From Bacteroidota bacterium (GTDB lineage: Bacteria; Bacteroidota; Bacteroidia; AKYH767-A; JABDAW01): DNA of 37,444 bases. Shown in pieces: positions 2,050-34,621 of the stretch. The notes beneath the pieces are model-generated. The model ran no database searches and was not told the DNA's origin. It was given only the letters and a program-made list of their open reading frames with translations. The stretch is taken from assembly GCA_013288905.1 (NCBI GenBank), contig JABDAW010000010.1, forward strand, positions 1 to 37,444. The letters are read 5' to 3'. Position numbers and translations under genes: made by a program. Position 1 is the first letter of the stretch. Each line of letters begins with the position of its first letter.

Positions 2050-3174
2050 ATGAAATTTATTGTATCCAGCGGGCTTCTTCTGAAGAACCTTCAAACCATA
2101 AGCGGAGTGCTGAATTCCAACACTCCATTGCCAATCTTAGAGAACTTTCTTTTTGATATTAATGATGGCGAATTGATCATTTCTGCATCCGACCTTGAAA
2201 CAACAATGACTACAAAGATGAATGTGGAAGCGAGGGAAAATGGGAAGATCGCTATCCCTGCCAGCATACTTTTGGAGACTTTGAAAACCTTTCCTGAAAT
2301 GCCTTTGACATTCACTTTTAGTACTGATAATTTCTCTATCGAATTAAGCTCTGATTATGGGAAATACAGTCTCTCCGGTCAGGATGGAGAAGAGTTTCCA
2401 CGCGTTCCTGAAATTGATGATGTGAAGACCTTGGAGATGCCTACCGGCGTACTTTCTGATGCTATCGTGAAAACTGTTTTCGCAACTGGGAATGATGAGT
2501 TGAGACCAGTAATGACAGGGGTGTTTTTTCAAATAGGATTAGATAATATTACCTTCGTTGCCACAGATGCCCATAAGTTAGTTCGTTACCGAAGGAATGA
2601 TTTGAAATCAACCGTTGAAACTTCTTTTATTTTACCAAAGAAACCTTTGAATCTTTTGAAGAATGCGCTTCCTTCAGAGGACACTAAGGTGAATATCAAT
2701 TATAATAATTCCAATGCTTTCTTTTCCTTTAATAATATCACTTTAATATGTCGGTTGATTGATGGTAGATACCCGAATTACGAAGCCGTCATTCCACAAG
2801 AGAATCCTAATAAATTGACTGTTGATCGTCAGACTTTTTTAAGTTCAATAAAGCGCGTTTCTATTTTCTCAAATAAATCAACGCACCAGGTTCGTTTGAA
2901 GATTACAGGCAGTGAATTACAGGTTTCTGCTGAAGACCTTGACTTTGCGAATGCCGCTCAAGAAAGAATGACTTGCCAGTTTGAAGGCGAGGATATGGAA
3001 ATCGGTTTCAATGCTCGTTTCATTCTTGACATGCTGAATAATTTAAGGACAAATGAAGTAGTACTTGAAATGTCTTCACCAAATCGTGCCGGGCTTTTGT
3101 TAGAAGCTCCAAACGAAAGAAATGCTAATGAAGATATCCTAATGTTGGTGATGCCTGTCATGCTGAATAGCTAA
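2050..3174 (+). CDS. dnaN: DNA polymerase III beta subunit (sliding clamp)
   Basis: 374 residues, the usual length for the beta clamp. The protein forms a head-to-tail dimeric ring around DNA and tethers the replicative polymerase. Recognisable features are the N-terminal MKFIVSSGLLLKNLQTISGVL (domain 1 start), 'NTPLPILENF', 'GEEFPRVPE' near residue 117, 'DELRPVMTGVFF' near 148, 'ATDAHKLVRYR' near 172 (start of domain 2), 'IDGRYPNYEAVIP' near 236, and the C-terminal LMLVMPVMLNS, which forms part of the protein-binding pocket (canonical MPMRL). A clear TAnnTTTG promoter precedes it. dnaA and recF are not adjacent, so this is not a classical origin cluster. The next gene begins about 130 bp downstream with no clear terminator between. 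Confidence 0.97.
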   Translation: MKFIVSSGLLLKNLQTISGVLNSNTPLPILENFLFDINDGELIISASDLETTMTTKMNVEARENGKIAIPASILLETLKTFPEMPLTFTFSTDNFSIELSSDYGKYSLSGQDGEEFPRVPEIDDVKTLEMPTGVLSDAIVKTVFATGNDELRPVMTGVFFQIGLDNITFVATDAHKLVRYRRNDLKSTVETSFILPKKPLNLLKNALPSEDTKVNINYNNSNAFFSFNNITLICRLIDGRYPNYEAVIPQENPNKLTVDRQTFLSSIKRVSIFSNKSTHQVRLKITGSELQVSAEDLDFANAAQERMTCQFEGEDMEIGFNARFILDMLNNLRTNEVVLEMSSPNRAGLLLEAPNERNANEDILMLVMPVMLNS

Positions 3175-3285
3175 GGCATTCTTTTTCCGGATGCATCCTT
3201 CAAAAAATCCATTTACAATTTAAGTATTAACTATTCGTTTGCCTTTCTATCCTTACTCAAGAATGGTAAATAATAGATATATTGA

Positions 3286-3293
3286 TAAGTTTG
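3286..3293 (+). promoter_or_regulatory. -7 box (TAAGTTTG) just before the TonB receptor gene
   Basis: TAAGTTTG fits the TAnnTTTG consensus. If used, transcription would start around 3299-3301, only a few bases before the ATG at 3305. That argues for 3305 over the in-frame TTG at 3239 or ATG at 3263. No good -33 box is visible. Confidence 0.4.
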
Positions 3294-3304
3294 CAGCAGT
3301 AAAA

Positions 3305-6106
3305 ATGAGAATTTTGATTGCCTGTATAAGTTATTTAGCCTGTTTCAGCGATTCTTTAACCAAAAAAAGCAACTTCTTTTCTTGGAAAAGCAACTGCTTC
3401 TTTCAGAAAAGCAACTTCTTTTCTTGGAAAAGCAACTGCTTCTCTCGGAAAAGCAACTCCTATTTCTGGAAAAGGAGTTGCTTTTTCCAAAAAAGCAACT
3501 CCTTTTTTCAAAAAAGCAACTGCTATTTCTGGAAAAGCAACTGCTTTTTTCGAAAAAGGAACTGCTTTTATTACAATAATACTACCTCATTTAATAGAAT
3601 TTTCCTTATCAGCGTTATTATTTTCGCTTTTTTTAATTCAATCAATTGCTTTGCGCAGGAAGGCAAAGCTACCATTTATGGTATGGTTTCAGATAGTGTA
3701 GGAAAGCCTTTGGCTGGGACTACAGTAGCTTTGTATGGCTCCAATCGTTTCCTTACTATAACTGATTCATCGGGTATTTATGAATTATCAATACCTGCAT
3801 TCTTAAATGATACAATTATTTTTAGCTATGTTGGTTTAGGAATTGGTCATACCTTCGTGAATCTAAGAGAGGGTGAAAAGAGAAAACTTAATATGACTTT
3901 AGTTTTCTCCTCTACCAATCTCCCTGAATTCGTCAAGAAGGAAGATAAAATTGACAGAGGAACTCCCATGGAAATTATCAATCCCAAAATTGTCGATGTT
4001 AACCCTGGTCCTAATAATTCCATTGAATCTATAGTAAAGACCTATCCTGGTGTTACCTCAAATAATGAGTTGAGCAATCAATACAATGTTCGCGGTGGAA
4101 ATTATGATGAGAATTTAGTTTACATCAATGATGTCGAGGTATTTCGTCCCTTCTTAATTCAAGCTGGACAGCAAGAGGGATTAAGTATAATTAATTCTGA
4201 TTTGGTATCCAATGTTGCATTTTCTGCAGGAGGTTTTGATGCCGCTTATGGCGACAAAATGTCCTCGGTTCTTGATATTAAATACAAGCGACCAACTGAC
4301 TTTGCAGGCTCCGTCAGCTTGAGTCTGTTAGGTCAAAGCCTCAGCCTGGAAGGCAGTGCAGGCAAGGGACATCGCTTCACTTATCTTTTTGGTTTCAGGG
4401 AAAAATCAAACAATTATGTTCTTGGGAGCTTGGATACAAAAGGTGATTATAATACTGCCTTTACAGATGTTCAAGGGCTGATGACTTATGATATTAATGA
4501 TAAATGGGAACTTGAAGTCTTTGGAAATTTTTCAGAAAACAAGTACAATGTCGTTCCTTCAAACAGAACTACTACATTCGGAACTGTAAGTGCTGCGTTG
4601 AATTTTGTTGTTTATTTCGATGGGCAGGAAATAGATTCTTATCAGACTTTGAATGGGGCAGCCACTCTCATCTATCACCCTAATCAACACTTCAAATTAA
4701 AGTCTATTTTCTCTGCTTATCAGGATAATGAGAATGAATCTTATGACATAGAAGGACAGTTTTATTTGAATCAATTAAATAACAATCTCGGCAGTTCTAA
4801 TTTTGGAAATGTAGCCTTCAACCTGGGTGTGGGCACTTTCATAAATCACGCCCGCGATGTCCTCAATGCGAATGTCTATAACTTTGAAGAAAAGGGCTAC
4901 TATACTTATGGCAAAAACAATGAATTACAATTTGGTGCCAAGGTTCAGCATGAGGTCATCACCGACAATCTCAATGAATGGAATTATGTTGATTCTGCTG
5001 GCTATTCCATCCCTATTCAGCCCGATACTGCCATCACTTTGCAGAATCCTGTGTGGGTTACTCACAACATTAGTTCAAACAGATACAGTGGTTATGTTCA
5101 GAACAAATGGGTATTTGATGCTGCATCAAAACCTACATTGACTCTTGGCGTAAGAACAAATTATTGGGACTTGAATAAACAGAATGTCGTCAGTCCACGC
5201 GCCAACTTCAGCATCAAGCCAGAATGGAAGGCAGATTTTGTATTTCGAGCTGCATGGGGCATCTATTATCAGCCCCCTTTCTTTCGCGAAATGCTAGACT
5301 TGAATGGTAATCTCCATACTGACATTAAGGCTCAGGAGTCAATTCATTTTGTGCTTGGAAGTGACTACAATTTTAAGGCTTGGGATCGCCCTTTCAAATT
5401 TGTTTCTGAGGCTTATTATAAAATATTAGACAACCTTGATCCTTATTTTATTGATGATGTACGCATCCGCTATCTTGGAAATAATCAAGCTACAGGATTC
5501 GCTGAAGGCATTGATTTCAGGCTTAATGGCGAGTTTGTAAAGAATGTAGAATCATGGGCAAGCCTCTCCATCATGCAAACAAAGGAAACCATTGCCAATA
5601 ACAGTTATTACAATTATTATAATAACGAAGGTCAACAAATTCTCCCTGGCGTAATTGATACAAAAGCTGTGGACAGCGTCAAAAACACAGTAGGTTCTAT
5701 TCCACGCCCTGCCGACCAACGGATTACTTTCAGCATTTTATTCCAGGATTATATTCCTAAACATCCTACCTTCAAAATGAATTTGAACCTTGTCTTTGGA
5801 AGTGGCTTTCCTTTCGGACCGCCAAACAGCACCAACTTCCTTGATGCCTTCAGGATGCCGTTCTACCGTAGGGTGGATATTGGTTTTTCCAAACAAATTG
5901 TCGGCGAAAATTCCAAAGCCCCAGACCACATTCATTTTTTGAAACACTTCACCTCCATCTGGATAAGTCTTGAAGTTTTCAATCTTTTGGATGTCAGCAA
6001 TACCGTGTCCTACACCTGGGTTCAGGATGCAAGCGGCACCAAATATGCCGTTCCGAATTACCTCACTACACGCCAGCTTAACTTGCGGCTGAATGTGAAG
6101 TTCTAA
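3305..6106 (+). CDS. TonB-dependent receptor with carboxypeptidase-regulatory-like domain; 5' end holds a 21-bp repeat array
   Basis: 933 residues from the ATG at 3305; the frame is open from a TTG at 3239. After a short hydrophobic start (MRILIACISYLACFSDS), ten heptads of the K-S-N-x-F-x-[WQR] type follow. A second signal-peptide-like segment (RIFLISVIIFAFFNSINCFAQ) then precedes GKATIYGMVSDSVGKPLAGT, the usual carboxypeptidase-regulatory-like domain. The plug domain has 'YNVRGGNYDENLVYINDVEV' and 'AGGFDAAYGDKMSSVLDI', and a 22-strand barrel ends with 'TTRQLNLRLNVKF' and a terminal Phe. Such receptors import large substrates across the outer membrane using TonB energy; no substrate can be named, and no SusD-like partner is next to it. 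No ATG, GTG or TTG lies between the array and the second hydrophobic segment. Either translation runs through the array or a rare start codon is used. Confidence 0.85.
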   Translation: MRILIACISYLACFSDSLTKKSNFFSWKSNCFFQKSNFFSWKSNCFSRKSNSYFWKRSCFFQKSNSFFQKSNCYFWKSNCFFRKRNCFYYNNTTSFNRIFLISVIIFAFFNSINCFAQEGKATIYGMVSDSVGKPLAGTTVALYGSNRFLTITDSSGIYELSIPAFLNDTIIFSYVGLGIGHTFVNLREGEKRKLNMTLVFSSTNLPEFVKKEDKIDRGTPMEIINPKIVDVNPGPNNSIESIVKTYPGVTSNNELSNQYNVRGGNYDENLVYINDVEVFRPFLIQAGQQEGLSIINSDLVSNVAFSAGGFDAAYGDKMSSVLDIKYKRPTDFAGSVSLSLLGQSLSLEGSAGKGHRFTYLFGFREKSNNYVLGSLDTKGDYNTAFTDVQGLMTYDINDKWELEVFGNFSENKYNVVPSNRTTTFGTVSAALNFVVYFDGQEIDSYQTLNGAATLIYHPNQHFKLKSIFSAYQDNENESYDIEGQFYLNQLNNNLGSSNFGNVAFNLGVGTFINHARDVLNANVYNFEEKGYYTYGKNNELQFGAKVQHEVITDNLNEWNYVDSAGYSIPIQPDTAITLQNPVWVTHNISSNRYSGYVQNKWVFDAASKPTLTLGVRTNYWDLNKQNVVSPRANFSIKPEWKADFVFRAAWGIYYQPPFFREMLDLNGNLHTDIKAQESIHFVLGSDYNFKAWDRPFKFVSEAYYKILDNLDPYFIDDVRIRYLGNNQATGFAEGIDFRLNGEFVKNVESWASLSIMQTKETIANNSYYNYYNNEGQQILPGVIDTKAVDSVKNTVGSIPRPADQRITFSILFQDYIPKHPTFKMNLNLVFGSGFPFGPPNSTNFLDAFRMPFYRRVDIGFSKQIVGENSKAPDHIHFLKHFTSIWISLEVFNLLDVSNTVSYTWVQDASGTKYAVPNYLTTRQLNLRLNVKF
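3368..3577 (+). repeat. Array A: 10 x 21-bp degenerate tandem repeat
   Basis: Ten consecutive units begin at 3368, 3389, 3410, 3431, 3452, 3473, 3494, 3515, 3536 and 3557, each exactly 21 bp. The common part is AGCAACTGCTTTTTTC followed by xGAAA. The core AAAAGCAACTGCTTTT is a dyad (AAAAGC/GCTTTT around AACT). The sixth unit departs from the others and reads GGAGTTGCTTTTTCC, the reverse complement of the core with its flanks. The array lies in frame in the 5' part of the TonB receptor gene and translates into ten heptads. It shares the octamer AGCAACTG with array C (13573-13778), there on the minus strand. Confidence 0.93.
3470..3511 (+). terminator. Terminator-like hairpin inside array A
   Basis: AAAAGGAGTTGCTTTT (3470-3485) and AAAAGCAACTCCTTTT (3491-3506) are perfect 16-bp inverted repeats with a 5-base loop, followed by a short T run to 3508. 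On RNA this is a strong stem followed by U residues and could terminate or attenuate transcription entering the TonB receptor gene. It arises because the sixth unit is inverted relative to the seventh. Function is inferred only. Confidence 0.5.
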
Positions 6107-7649: not shown

Positions 7650-7880
7650 AAATCTCATTTTATTGACAAAAACCTGTTTAGGTTTCAAGAAAAGCTGTTA
7701 CGGTTTTACCAAAATCGCAACGGGTTTTACCAAAACAGGGAGCTCTTTTGGTGAAAGCTAAACCTCTTTTTGATAAACCGGAAGTTCTTTTTGCAAAACC
7801 TAAACGTCATTTGTAAAAAGAACTTCTGGTTTTGTCAAAGGAGCTTCTTGTTATTGTAAAACCTGTTTAGCTTTCCACGA
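7650..7880. repeat. Array B: 11 x 21-bp degenerate tandem repeat
   Basis: The DNA from 7671 to 7880 divides into ten consecutive 21-bp units without any insertion or deletion; a weaker unit precedes it (7650-7670). Units are strongly diverged but keep AA at the start, TTTT near positions 13-16 and mostly AA at the end, for example AAGCTGTTACGGTTTTACC, AATCGCAACGGGTTTTACC and AACCGGAAGTTCTTTTTGC. Units 1 and 10 both begin AACCTGTTTAG. Local dyads occur (ACCAAAA...TTTTGGT around 7728-7752; AACCTGTTTAGGTT). It fills the gap between the beta-helix gene and the barrel gene, and ends 109 bp before the latter's ATG, upstream of its promoter. Confidence 0.85.
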
Positions 7881-13485: not shown

Positions 13486-13572
13486 AACCCCATTCCTCAA
13501 AAATCTTCCTTTTTACACCTGAAAAACGGGTTTTATAAGGGGAAAAAAGCTGCCGGAGACATTAGCCCCCTT

Positions 13573-13778
13573 CCAGTTGCTCCTTGTATCTTACCAGTTG
13601 CTCCTTGTAGTTTACCAGTTTCTACTTGTATCATTGCCAGTTGCTCCTTGTACGATACCAGTTGCTCCTTGTGTCTTACCAGTTGCTTCTTGTATCGCAG
13701 CAGTTGCTTATTGTATTACTACCAGTTGCTCCTGGTACTGCGCCAGTTGCTTCTGGTATCATACCAGTTGCTCCTTCT
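13573..13778. repeat. Array C: 10 x 21/22-bp degenerate tandem repeat
   Basis: Units start at 13573, 13594, 13615, 13637, 13658, 13679, 13700, 13722, 13743 and 13764 (last one partial). The period is 21 bp except for units 3 and 7, which are 22 bp. The unit begins CCAGTTGCTCCTTGTA and ends in about five variable bases. Units 8 and 9 have CTGG in place of CTTG, creating a CCAG...CTGG dyad. Because 21 is a multiple of three and the unit has few stops, several spurious reading frames run across it. It lies between two minus-strand genes, 142 bp upstream of the kelch-like start codon and 122 bp beyond the stop of the gene at 13901. The rest of 13431-13900 holds only the kelch-gene promoter. Confidence 0.93.
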
Positions 13779-24063: not shown

Positions 24064-24273
24064 GAGGTACCCGAAGTCGTTTCGGAGTCTCCCGAACTCA
24101 CATCGGGTGTCTCCGAGGAGCCTTCGGAGTATTCCGAACCCATTCCAGACTAACCCGAAGCAGCTTCGGAGTCTCCCGAACTCGCTTCGGGTGTCTCCGA
24201 GGAGCCTTCGGAGTATTCCGAACTCATTCCAGACTAACCCGAAGCAGCTTCGGAGTCTCCCGAACTTGCTTCG
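24064..24273. repeat. Array D: 10 x 21-bp tandem repeat with an 84-bp higher-order repeat
   Basis: Ten units of exactly 21 bp run from 24064 to 24273, the main type being GAGTCTCCCGAACTCGC followed by TTCG. The array is far more GC-rich than its AT-rich flanks. Units 3-6 (24106-24189) recur almost exactly as units 7-10 (24190-24273), so a four-unit, 84-bp block has been duplicated; unit 3 equals unit 7 and unit 5 equals unit 9. Each unit boundary forms dyads, for instance CCGAAGCAGCTTCGG and CCCGAACTCGCTTCGGG, so an RNA copy could fold into a row of hairpins. The array lies between divergent genes (start codons at 23809 and 24371). In the rest of 23810-24370 I see only the minus-strand -7 box at 23829-23836 and AT-rich DNA. 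Confidence 0.95.
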
Positions 24274-24370
24274 GGAGACATCATTGAATCTATATAACAG
24301 GATTTTTTATAGAAATTAATAAAAATAGAATAAGTAAAATTTATATAAATAATAATTAAATAATAAGAAA

Positions 24371-28112: not shown

Positions 28113-28124
28113 AACAAATTTGTA

Positions 28125-29492
28125 ATGAAAATAATTAGAAATATAACTGGGATTTTATTCTGCATGATGCTGCTGAATTCCTTTAGCAGCAAGGCTCAAG
28201 TGAAGATTCTTGACCAGGTGGTAGGTGTCGTCGGGGCGAATGTGATTCTTCAATCGGACATTGAATCTCAATATCAGCAATTCCTGCTTCAAGGTGGTCA
28301 GGATAATCCGAATATGAGGTGTGAGATCCTTTATCAAATGCTGATTAATAAACTTCTGCTGAATCAAGCAGTATTGGACAGCGTTGAAGTTTCGAGTACA
28401 CAAGTGGATGAGGAATTAGATAAAAGAATGCGCTTTTATATTCAGCAGATTGGTTCTCAAAAACTCTTGGAAGAGCGTATGGGAAAATCTGTTATTGAAT
28501 TAAAAGCAGAATTCAGAACACTCATCAAAGACCAGATGCTTACCCAGCAAATGCAACAAAAGATTACGAAGGATGTTAATGCCTCGCCCTCTGATGTTAA
28601 GAATTATTATGAACATATTCCAAAGGACAGTTTGCCACGGATTGAATCTGAATTTGAGATTCAGCAAATCGTAAAGAATATTGCAGTTACTGAAGAACAG
28701 AAAAAAACTGTTAGGGATAAATTAGAAGAATACAAACAGGATATTTTGAAAGGCAAAAGGGATTTTGTAGCTACTGCAACTCTCTATTCACAAGACCCTG
28801 GTTCATACAAGAAGGGTGGTGAACTTGGTTTCTTTGGAAGAGGCGATATGCAACCTTCTTTCGAAGCTGCGGCATTCAAGCTTAGACCAGGGGAAATCTC
28901 TGATATTGTTGAAACACCTTATGGATTCCATATTCTTCAATTGATTGAAAGACGGGGCGATCAGATTAATGTAAGACATATTTTATTACGTCCGAAAGTC
29001 AGTGATGAAAACATAGAAATTGCAAGTAAATTTCTTGATAGCGTCAGAACAGAAATTAATAAAGGAACAATAACTTTTACGGATGCTGCTCAAAGATTCT
29101 CTGATGATGCGGATACAAAATACAATGCCGGATTAATGCAAAACACGCAGGATGGCACAACAAAATTTGATGCTACAACCATGGATAAAACTTTGTTCTT
29201 TCAGATTGATCAACTGAAATTAGGTGAGATTTCTAAACCTGTTTCTTATTCGGATAAAGAGCAAAAGGCTGCATTGAGATTACTGATGGTTAAATCAAAA
29301 ACTTCTCCTCATACTGCCAACCTAAAGGACGATTATCAGAAGATCAGAAACGCTGCATTATCTGATAAACAAAACCTGACCTTGTTGGATTGGGTGAAGA
29401 AAAAACGTGCCGAAACTTATGTAAGTATCAATAAGGATTATCTGAAATGTGATGCCTTAAAAGACTGGGTGAAATATGTTGCTGGCAAATAA
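28125..29492 (+). CDS. surA: Periplasmic chaperone/peptidyl-prolyl isomerase SurA
   Basis: 455 residues, close to the usual SurA length. Signal peptide to about residue 24 (SSKAQ). The SurA N-terminal domain follows ('LDQVVGVVGANVILQSDIES', 'CEILYQMLINKLLLNQAVLD', then 'VDEELDKRMRFYIQQIG'). The first parvulin domain runs about 175-275 ('SEFEIQQIVKNI', 'DPGSYKKGGELGFFGRGDM', 'TPYGFHILQLIERRG') and the second about 280-390 ('INVRHILLRPKV', 'DDADTKYNAGLMQ'). The second is less well conserved. SurA escorts unfolded barrel proteins across the periplasm to the BAM complex. It is the third gene of the operon beginning at 25254, and a MoxR gene follows after 24 bp. Confidence 0.92.
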   Translation: MKIIRNITGILFCMMLLNSFSSKAQVKILDQVVGVVGANVILQSDIESQYQQFLLQGGQDNPNMRCEILYQMLINKLLLNQAVLDSVEVSSTQVDEELDKRMRFYIQQIGSQKLLEERMGKSVIELKAEFRTLIKDQMLTQQMQQKITKDVNASPSDVKNYYEHIPKDSLPRIESEFEIQQIVKNIAVTEEQKKTVRDKLEEYKQDILKGKRDFVATATLYSQDPGSYKKGGELGFFGRGDMQPSFEAAAFKLRPGEISDIVETPYGFHILQLIERRGDQINVRHILLRPKVSDENIEIASKFLDSVRTEINKGTITFTDAAQRFSDDADTKYNAGLMQNTQDGTTKFDATTMDKTLFFQIDQLKLGEISKPVSYSDKEQKAALRLLMVKSKTSPHTANLKDDYQKIRNAALSDKQNLTLLDWVKKKRAETYVSINKDYLKCDALKDWVKYVAGK

Positions 29493-34292: not shown

Positions 34293-34483
34293 AATTTCCG
34301 ACCCACATTGAAAAATGTATGACCTGCATTTAAGAATATATGACCCACATTTAAAATTGTTATACCTAATAATTAAGAATGTATGACCCACATTTAAGAA
34401 TGTCATACCTAACAATTAAGAATGTATGACCCACATTTCAAAATGTATGACCTACCTTTAAGAATGTATGACCTACATTTAAG
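34293..34483. repeat. Array E: 9 x 21/22-bp degenerate tandem repeat
   Basis: Nine units start at 34293, 34314, 34335, 34356, 34378, 34399, 34421, 34442 and 34463. They are 21 bp except units 4 and 6, which are 22 bp. The common form is AATGTATGACCCACATTTAA followed by G. AATGT and ACATT inside the unit form a 5-bp dyad. Units 4 and 6 share a variant (TATACCTAAnAATTAAG), suggesting a duplicated pair with its neighbour. The array lies between ftsK and lolA, 170 bp upstream of the lolA start and upstream of its -7 box. The rest of 34146-34653 holds the two ftsK hairpins and the lolA promoter box. Confidence 0.93.
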
Positions 34484-34621
34484 ATAAAAGGTCATTTAAT
34501 GTCTTATGCGACTATTTTAATTGCTAATAAAGCAGTATTTAACAGCACTTTACGTCCATATCTCTATAAACCCATTGGAAGGCACATTTAATTCCTCTTA
34601 ACTGAATCCTTTCCTTTTTCC

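Follow-up and report, generated by a model that had tools for sequence, protein, structure and literature searches.

The TonB-dependent receptor gene downstream of dnaN in this Bacteroidota genome carries a ten-unit, 21-bp tandem array between its most likely start codon and its signal peptide. From the sequence we consider it likely that translation runs through the array, which would then be discarded together with the rest of an unusually long signal peptide, leaving the mature receptor unchanged. The array lies in a window of 37,444 nucleotides, by which we mean the whole stretch of DNA that was analysed, and was compared with arrays under 600 bp from its own genome (637 kb), the congener G002 (1161 kb) and the congener G001 (250 kb), approximately 2.05 Mb in total, as well as with receptor orthologs from outside the genus.

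In the window sequence, positions 3368–3577 consist of ten contiguous units, each exactly 21 bp (called by TRF as 3364–3569, period 21, 9.8 copies, score 217), and they encode in frame the heptad K-S-N-x-F-x-[WQR], as the sequence-only reading had described. The unit at 3473–3493 appears as a quasi-inverted copy because the unit itself is near-palindromic. As the units are contiguous and spacers are absent, the structure is not a CRISPR array. The reading frame is open from TTG 3239, ATG 3263 or ATG 3305 down to the stop at 6106, and these three canonical in-frame starts all lie on the upstream side of the array. The earlier statement that no ATG, GTG or TTG lies between array and signal peptide holds for the window. 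Pfam finds no match in the extension and recognises CarbopepD_reg_2 and Plug after the array (PF13715, 32.8 bits against a cut-off of 32.2; PF07715, 30.3 against 23.9), which identifies the protein as a TonB-dependent receptor with CarbopepD_reg_2; Rfam returns no match in the window. The receptor has matches in 61 of 61 genomes searched, most of them near-full-length. A signal peptide at the very N-terminus is usual for such receptors, if not strictly defining, and is found there in neither the window nor the congener. Counted from ATG 3305, the predicted AQ|EG cleavage follows residue 118 and about 96 residues precede the conserved signal peptide, both signal peptide and cleavage site being placed by hydropathy and alignment. 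The coordinates of the main features are collected in Table 1.

Table 1. Features of the receptor locus and of the other 21-bp arrays in the window
Feature	Position	Strand	Basis or remark
dnaN (DNA polymerase III beta clamp)	2050–3174	+	Upstream neighbour; Pfam DNA_pol3_beta domains
Conserved block ATGGTAAATAATAGATATATTGATAAGTTTGCAGC	3263–3297	+	Congener alignment, 33–34 of 35 bases identical; holds promoter and possible alternative ATG 3263
TAAGTTTG, putative -7 box of Bacteroidetes-type promoter	3286–3293	+	Motif score, spacing
Most likely start codon, ATG with A-rich leader	3305–3307	+	Promoter spacing, sequence context
21-bp array, 10 units	3368–3577	+	In frame, codes for ten cationic heptads
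Junction and predicted signal peptide NTTSFNRIFLISVIIFAFFNSINCFAQ	3578–3658	+	Hydropathy; alignment to the congener's CGNNSCSFNQIFTIFLIILALFSSFNGIAQ
Mature TonB-dependent receptor	3659–6106	+	CarbopepD_reg_2, Plug (Pfam)
Sister 21-bp array	7669–7861		Intergenic, unit unrelated
Sister 21/22-bp array	13573–13776		Intergenic; conserved leader block flanking at 13502–13564
Sister 21-bp array	24069–24275		Between divergent genes
Sister 21/22-bp array	34300–34484		Between ftsK and next gene

The congener G002 has the same arrangement. Its receptor (CAIMUP010000060.1, L036) is 71% identical, adjoins a dnaN that is 94% identical, and likewise has a 21-bp array in frame ahead of the signal peptide. The congener unit, TTTGCGCTCCTCCAACGACCG, encodes SSNDRLR and matches the window unit at 10 of 21 positions at best rotation, which is chance level given a random mean of 9.4, and the in-register residual identity of the two arrays is 0.35 (rank 9 of 85 shifts). 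Outside the array the two loci correspond, with a near-identical 35-base block upstream and NNxxSFNxIF followed by the signal peptide downstream. From ATG to the AQ|EG site there are exactly 118 codons in both species. This equality is striking, but it can be of chance origin, ten or so units being a common array size in the genus. No receptor ortholog was found in G001, where the best match has an E-value of 3e-17 and 29% identity, so that only two species inform on the locus. Among relatives further away, the ortholog of the same-family genome G003 has TAAATTTG, then ATG, then the signal peptide, and the array ahead of the signal peptide is absent from it and from those orthologs at order and class level for which the N-terminus was readable in the correct orientation. 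Outside the genus an ATG (or GTG/TTG) usually lies near the receptor signal peptide. The proposed alignment with homologues gives orthologs elsewhere that start at the signal peptide without an array, and a congener with an array of its own.

Conservation of the gene varies along its length. Across 727 aligned codons of the mature receptor, the fraction of differences between window and congener is 0.22 at the first, 0.14 at the second and 0.53 at the third codon position, with zero stops, and on this sequence comparison the mature receptor is under strong purifying selection between the two species. The first 17 codons, just before the array, are unconserved (0.71, 0.65 and 0.35), and conservation is partial across the junction and signal peptide (0.41, 0.21 and 0.52). 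This pattern fits a dispensable extension placed ahead of a needed signal peptide.

The start of the gene can be placed with some confidence through its promoter. The motif TAnnTTTG is enriched ahead of ATGs in the genus, with a peak at -50 to -20 and an extended consensus that includes C at +8 and an A-run from +15. TAAGTTTG is the sole site of this kind between dnaN and the signal peptide. Its score of 17.1 exceeds that of 99.6% of in-gene motif sites and falls mid-range among true promoters; the corresponding score in the congener is 16.65. With up to 3 mismatches allowed, the 26-mer at 3269–3294 has a single occurrence each in the window's own genome and in G002, and is absent from 11 other relatives. 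The distance from the first base of the motif to the ATG is 19 nt in both species, a short leader that is unusual yet found elsewhere in the genus (the -20 to -11 bin holds 34 sites, the control 12). There is no obvious candidate for a -33 element at the receptor promoter. ATG 3305 carries A at -3, a base that favours initiation in Bacteroidetes (PMC6847099). The promoter score, the equal ATG spacing and the A at -3 together favour a start at ATG 3305 and, as read from sequence, translation through the array. Of the three alternatives raised by the sequence-only reading, an odd N-terminal extension is therefore the best supported: promoter and ATG keep their spacing upstream of the array in two species, and the window has no canonical start after the array. 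Its length before the signal peptide is about 96 rather than 110 residues. The open frame itself is weak evidence of coding because 44.5% of frames are open across the intergenic arrays of the genus, against 9.9% in non-array intergenic DNA. At 0.445 per array, two open frames would arise by chance with a probability of 0.2, and openness was not taken as decisive proof.

The proposed course of events is as follows. The array is a member of a genus-wide set of minisatellites of about 200 bp, in which the 21-bp period is fixed and the units are mostly private, and in an ancestor common to both species it would have come to separate the receptor's start codon from its signal peptide. Transcription would begin right after TAAGTTTG and translation at ATG 3305, and the array would be read as the positively charged N-terminal extension of a signal peptide of about 118 residues, which signal peptidase would remove on export. 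The array sequence could then have drifted or been replaced freely, with selection needing only to purge stop codons; gain, loss or replacement of units is frame-neutral because 21 is a multiple of 3. We infer translation, export, cleavage of the extension and near-neutrality of the array from the sequence. A Sec signal peptide that follows about 96 residues is unusual, and this stands against our reading. It is possible that two different arrays inserted independently at the same place, as opposed to the turnover of one ancestral array; a single ancestral event is favoured, since both species have lost the start codon at the signal peptide.

The main rival to an N-terminal extension is a rare non-AUG start, as the sequence-only reading had also considered. 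The array would then be 5' UTR behind the same promoter, with translation starting at the head of the signal peptide on ATT in the window and on ATA in the congener, or on an in-frame TTG at the extreme end of the congener's array, a possible start there. Both species indeed keep an Ile codon where the two sequences align immediately ahead of the hydrophobic core, orthologs elsewhere start near this point, and the window array folds strongly as RNA (z -7.5). However, the folding is unconserved (z +0.1 for the congener array), which led us to reject RNA structure as a conserved feature, and rare starts would have been retained in both species even though one base change gives ATG. Few or zero positive charges would precede the hydrophobic core, and ATGs lie in frame upstream of the array in both species. 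We regard this rival as unlikely, and the upstream ATG as favoured. A functional array, whose length or charge tunes export or synthesis of the receptor and whose unit number is set by slippage, appears slightly less probable again. The identical 118-codon extension despite unrelated units, and the net positive charge of the heptads in both species, would be expected of such tuning, but 9–11 units are frequent in arrays of the genus anyway, and the charge per heptad is unexceptional (+0.56 in the congener, reached by 43% of control arrays). The related suggestion that copy number acts as an expression switch finds no support in the unconserved RNA structure, and in its simple form it fails because unit turnover is frame-neutral.

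Silencing of the receptor, in which the array has parted the gene from its start, would account for the missing canonical start codon beside the signal peptide. The strong purifying selection on the receptor and the availability of a promoter and an in-frame ATG upstream make this very improbable. Least credible of all is that the heptads form an ordinary conserved protein domain. The extensions of both species do consist of Ser/Asn-containing heptads with some positive charge; their similarity at best rotation is nonetheless within chance (P 0.17), and heptad conservation was rejected on this basis. The extension also lacks a Pfam match and is absent from orthologs outside the genus. Homologues with conserved heptads, which the sequence-only reading had named as the sign of such a domain, were not seen, since the congener shares the position of the array and not its heptads.

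The receptor array belongs to a large population. Arrays under 600 bp number 89 in the window's own genome, 271 in G002 and 40 in G001 (about 400), or 1.4, 2.3 and 1.6 per 10 kb, and occupy 2.4–4.1% of bases; 538 kb from outside the genus gave three matches, representing two distinct arrays. In intergenic arrays of 150–350 bp the best lag is 21 in 199 of 229. Many arrays of the genus have 8–12 units, copy numbers that may be off as the own genome and the congener are metagenome assemblies in which many contigs break in arrays. Units are mostly private, with 52 of 329 having a partner at ≥18/21. Several of these partners sit at contig ends and are probably two halves of one assembly-breaking array; others lie inside contigs at different loci. 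The window itself holds four ~21-bp arrays besides that of the receptor, all with unrelated unit sequences. In the congener, too, an array lies beside the pair formed by ftsK and the next gene, and its unit is unrelated to that in the window. Filled and empty orthologous sites are also found (window 28113–28163 against L152 2716–2853; L114 against L065). With about ten units of 21 bp and a private unit the receptor array fits this population, and it departs from the usual, though not strictly defining, intergenic position by lying inside a reading frame. Its flanks, taken from 3364–3569, match one other flank in the genus sample on the left and none on the right.

Arrays occupy tandem, divergent and convergent intergenic regions, and a role only as terminators or only as promoter elements was rejected because all three orientations are occupied. 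Palindromes are in modest excess (mean 5.81 against 5.22 pairs; ≥8 pairs in 9.1% against 0.8–1.7%), too modest for a palindromic unit to be the defining trait. A survey of 214 array/downstream-gene pairs, with genes called by a simple program based on codon usage, shows 23 open frames, nearly all with an ATG after the array. The receptor pair is the only clear case among the 214 in which a 21-bp array separates the start codon from the signal peptide. Other repeat classes in the open pairs comprise 14-residue coding repeats (L067/L170), 7-bp repeats (L113), leucine-rich-type repeats (L128) and coiled-coil-type repeats (L181). In a gene for a putative M23-type peptidase, the 7-bp repeats TTCACTG/TTCACTA (L113 5330–5700) occur both within the signal-peptide region and upstream of it, which gives a second example of a start region with repeats.

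Several further observations concern the arrays as a group. Identical or near-identical units are found at different congener loci (L062:11157–11375 and L164:5764–5986; L106:18045–18270 and L108:18038–18288), which suggests occasional copying of arrays or units. Many G002 contigs start or end within a 21-bp array (L063, L066, L068, L069, L107, L173, L175 and others), and such arrays appear to limit assembly of the genus. A conserved block of about 65–145 bp containing GGGTTTTATAACGGGAAAAA and GAGACATTA is present at window 13502–13564 and 14 other places (15 copies in 2.04 Mb). Every copy adjoins a 21-bp array, with the 3' end of the block about 10 bp from the array edge, and at least sometimes the block extends into the promoter of a gene pointing away from the array. 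The arrays of the 21-bp family outside the genus (L020 4189–4486; L008 923–1124, equal to L082 15993–16194) both lie near the receptor ortholog, that of L020 about 190 bp upstream of it.

In-frame minisatellites or VNTRs of bacterial surface proteins also have units that are a multiple of 3, such that copy changes keep the frame, and they typically lie within the mature protein. Unlike these, the receptor array precedes the signal peptide and is presumably removed. The BrickBuilt minisatellite/MITE of Porphyromonas gingivalis, likewise of the Bacteroidota, consists of dispersed, spacerless arrays of tandem units of about 20 bp that are mostly intergenic, with some conserved flanks, as here; it has 19 copies of one 23-nt sequence, varying in copy number, with a leader, a tail and IS-like ends, and is never in genes (PMC4596501). 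In contrast, the present arrays number in the hundreds with a 21-bp period and one is intragenic, and neither a shared unit nor a conserved leader and tail is apparent from the unit partners and flanks given above, most flanks being unshared. The TAACTGA intergenic direct repeats of Beggiatoaceae, Cyanobacteria and some Bacteroidetes are similar in forming many intergenic tandem arrays, sporadically distributed among lineages, whose unit length is a multiple of 7 bp (PMC4679880), but they are one fixed 7-bp sequence whereas the arrays of this genus have fixed length and free sequence. Long signal sequences occur in autotransporters, where a long extension likewise precedes an ordinary signal peptide with removal on export expected (PMC2805444); those extensions share a conserved domain organisation, whereas that of the receptor is a species-specific repeat with no conserved sequence. 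None of these three systems joins fixed length with free sequence. A literature search, with most subscription journals outside its reach, turned up no account of 21-bp arrays that extend through a whole genus and have private units.

A sequence-independent array-making process with a 21-bp ruler, equal to two helical turns, might repeatedly amplify or rewrite local DNA of the genus into arrays of about ten units, even inside a gene, and the receptor array would then have given way to another of equal length and unrelated sequence with the frame intact; we hold this as a tentative and rather doubtful proposal. The puzzling reading frame of the receptor is in any case tied to a genus-wide burst of minisatellites in which unit length is fixed and sequence mostly private. 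For annotation, automatic gene calls may put the start of this receptor in the wrong place; the simple caller used here set it at 3683. The receptor offers a natural experiment on the survival of a start region after insertion of an array, and on whether signal peptides tolerate repetitive extensions of about 100 residues.
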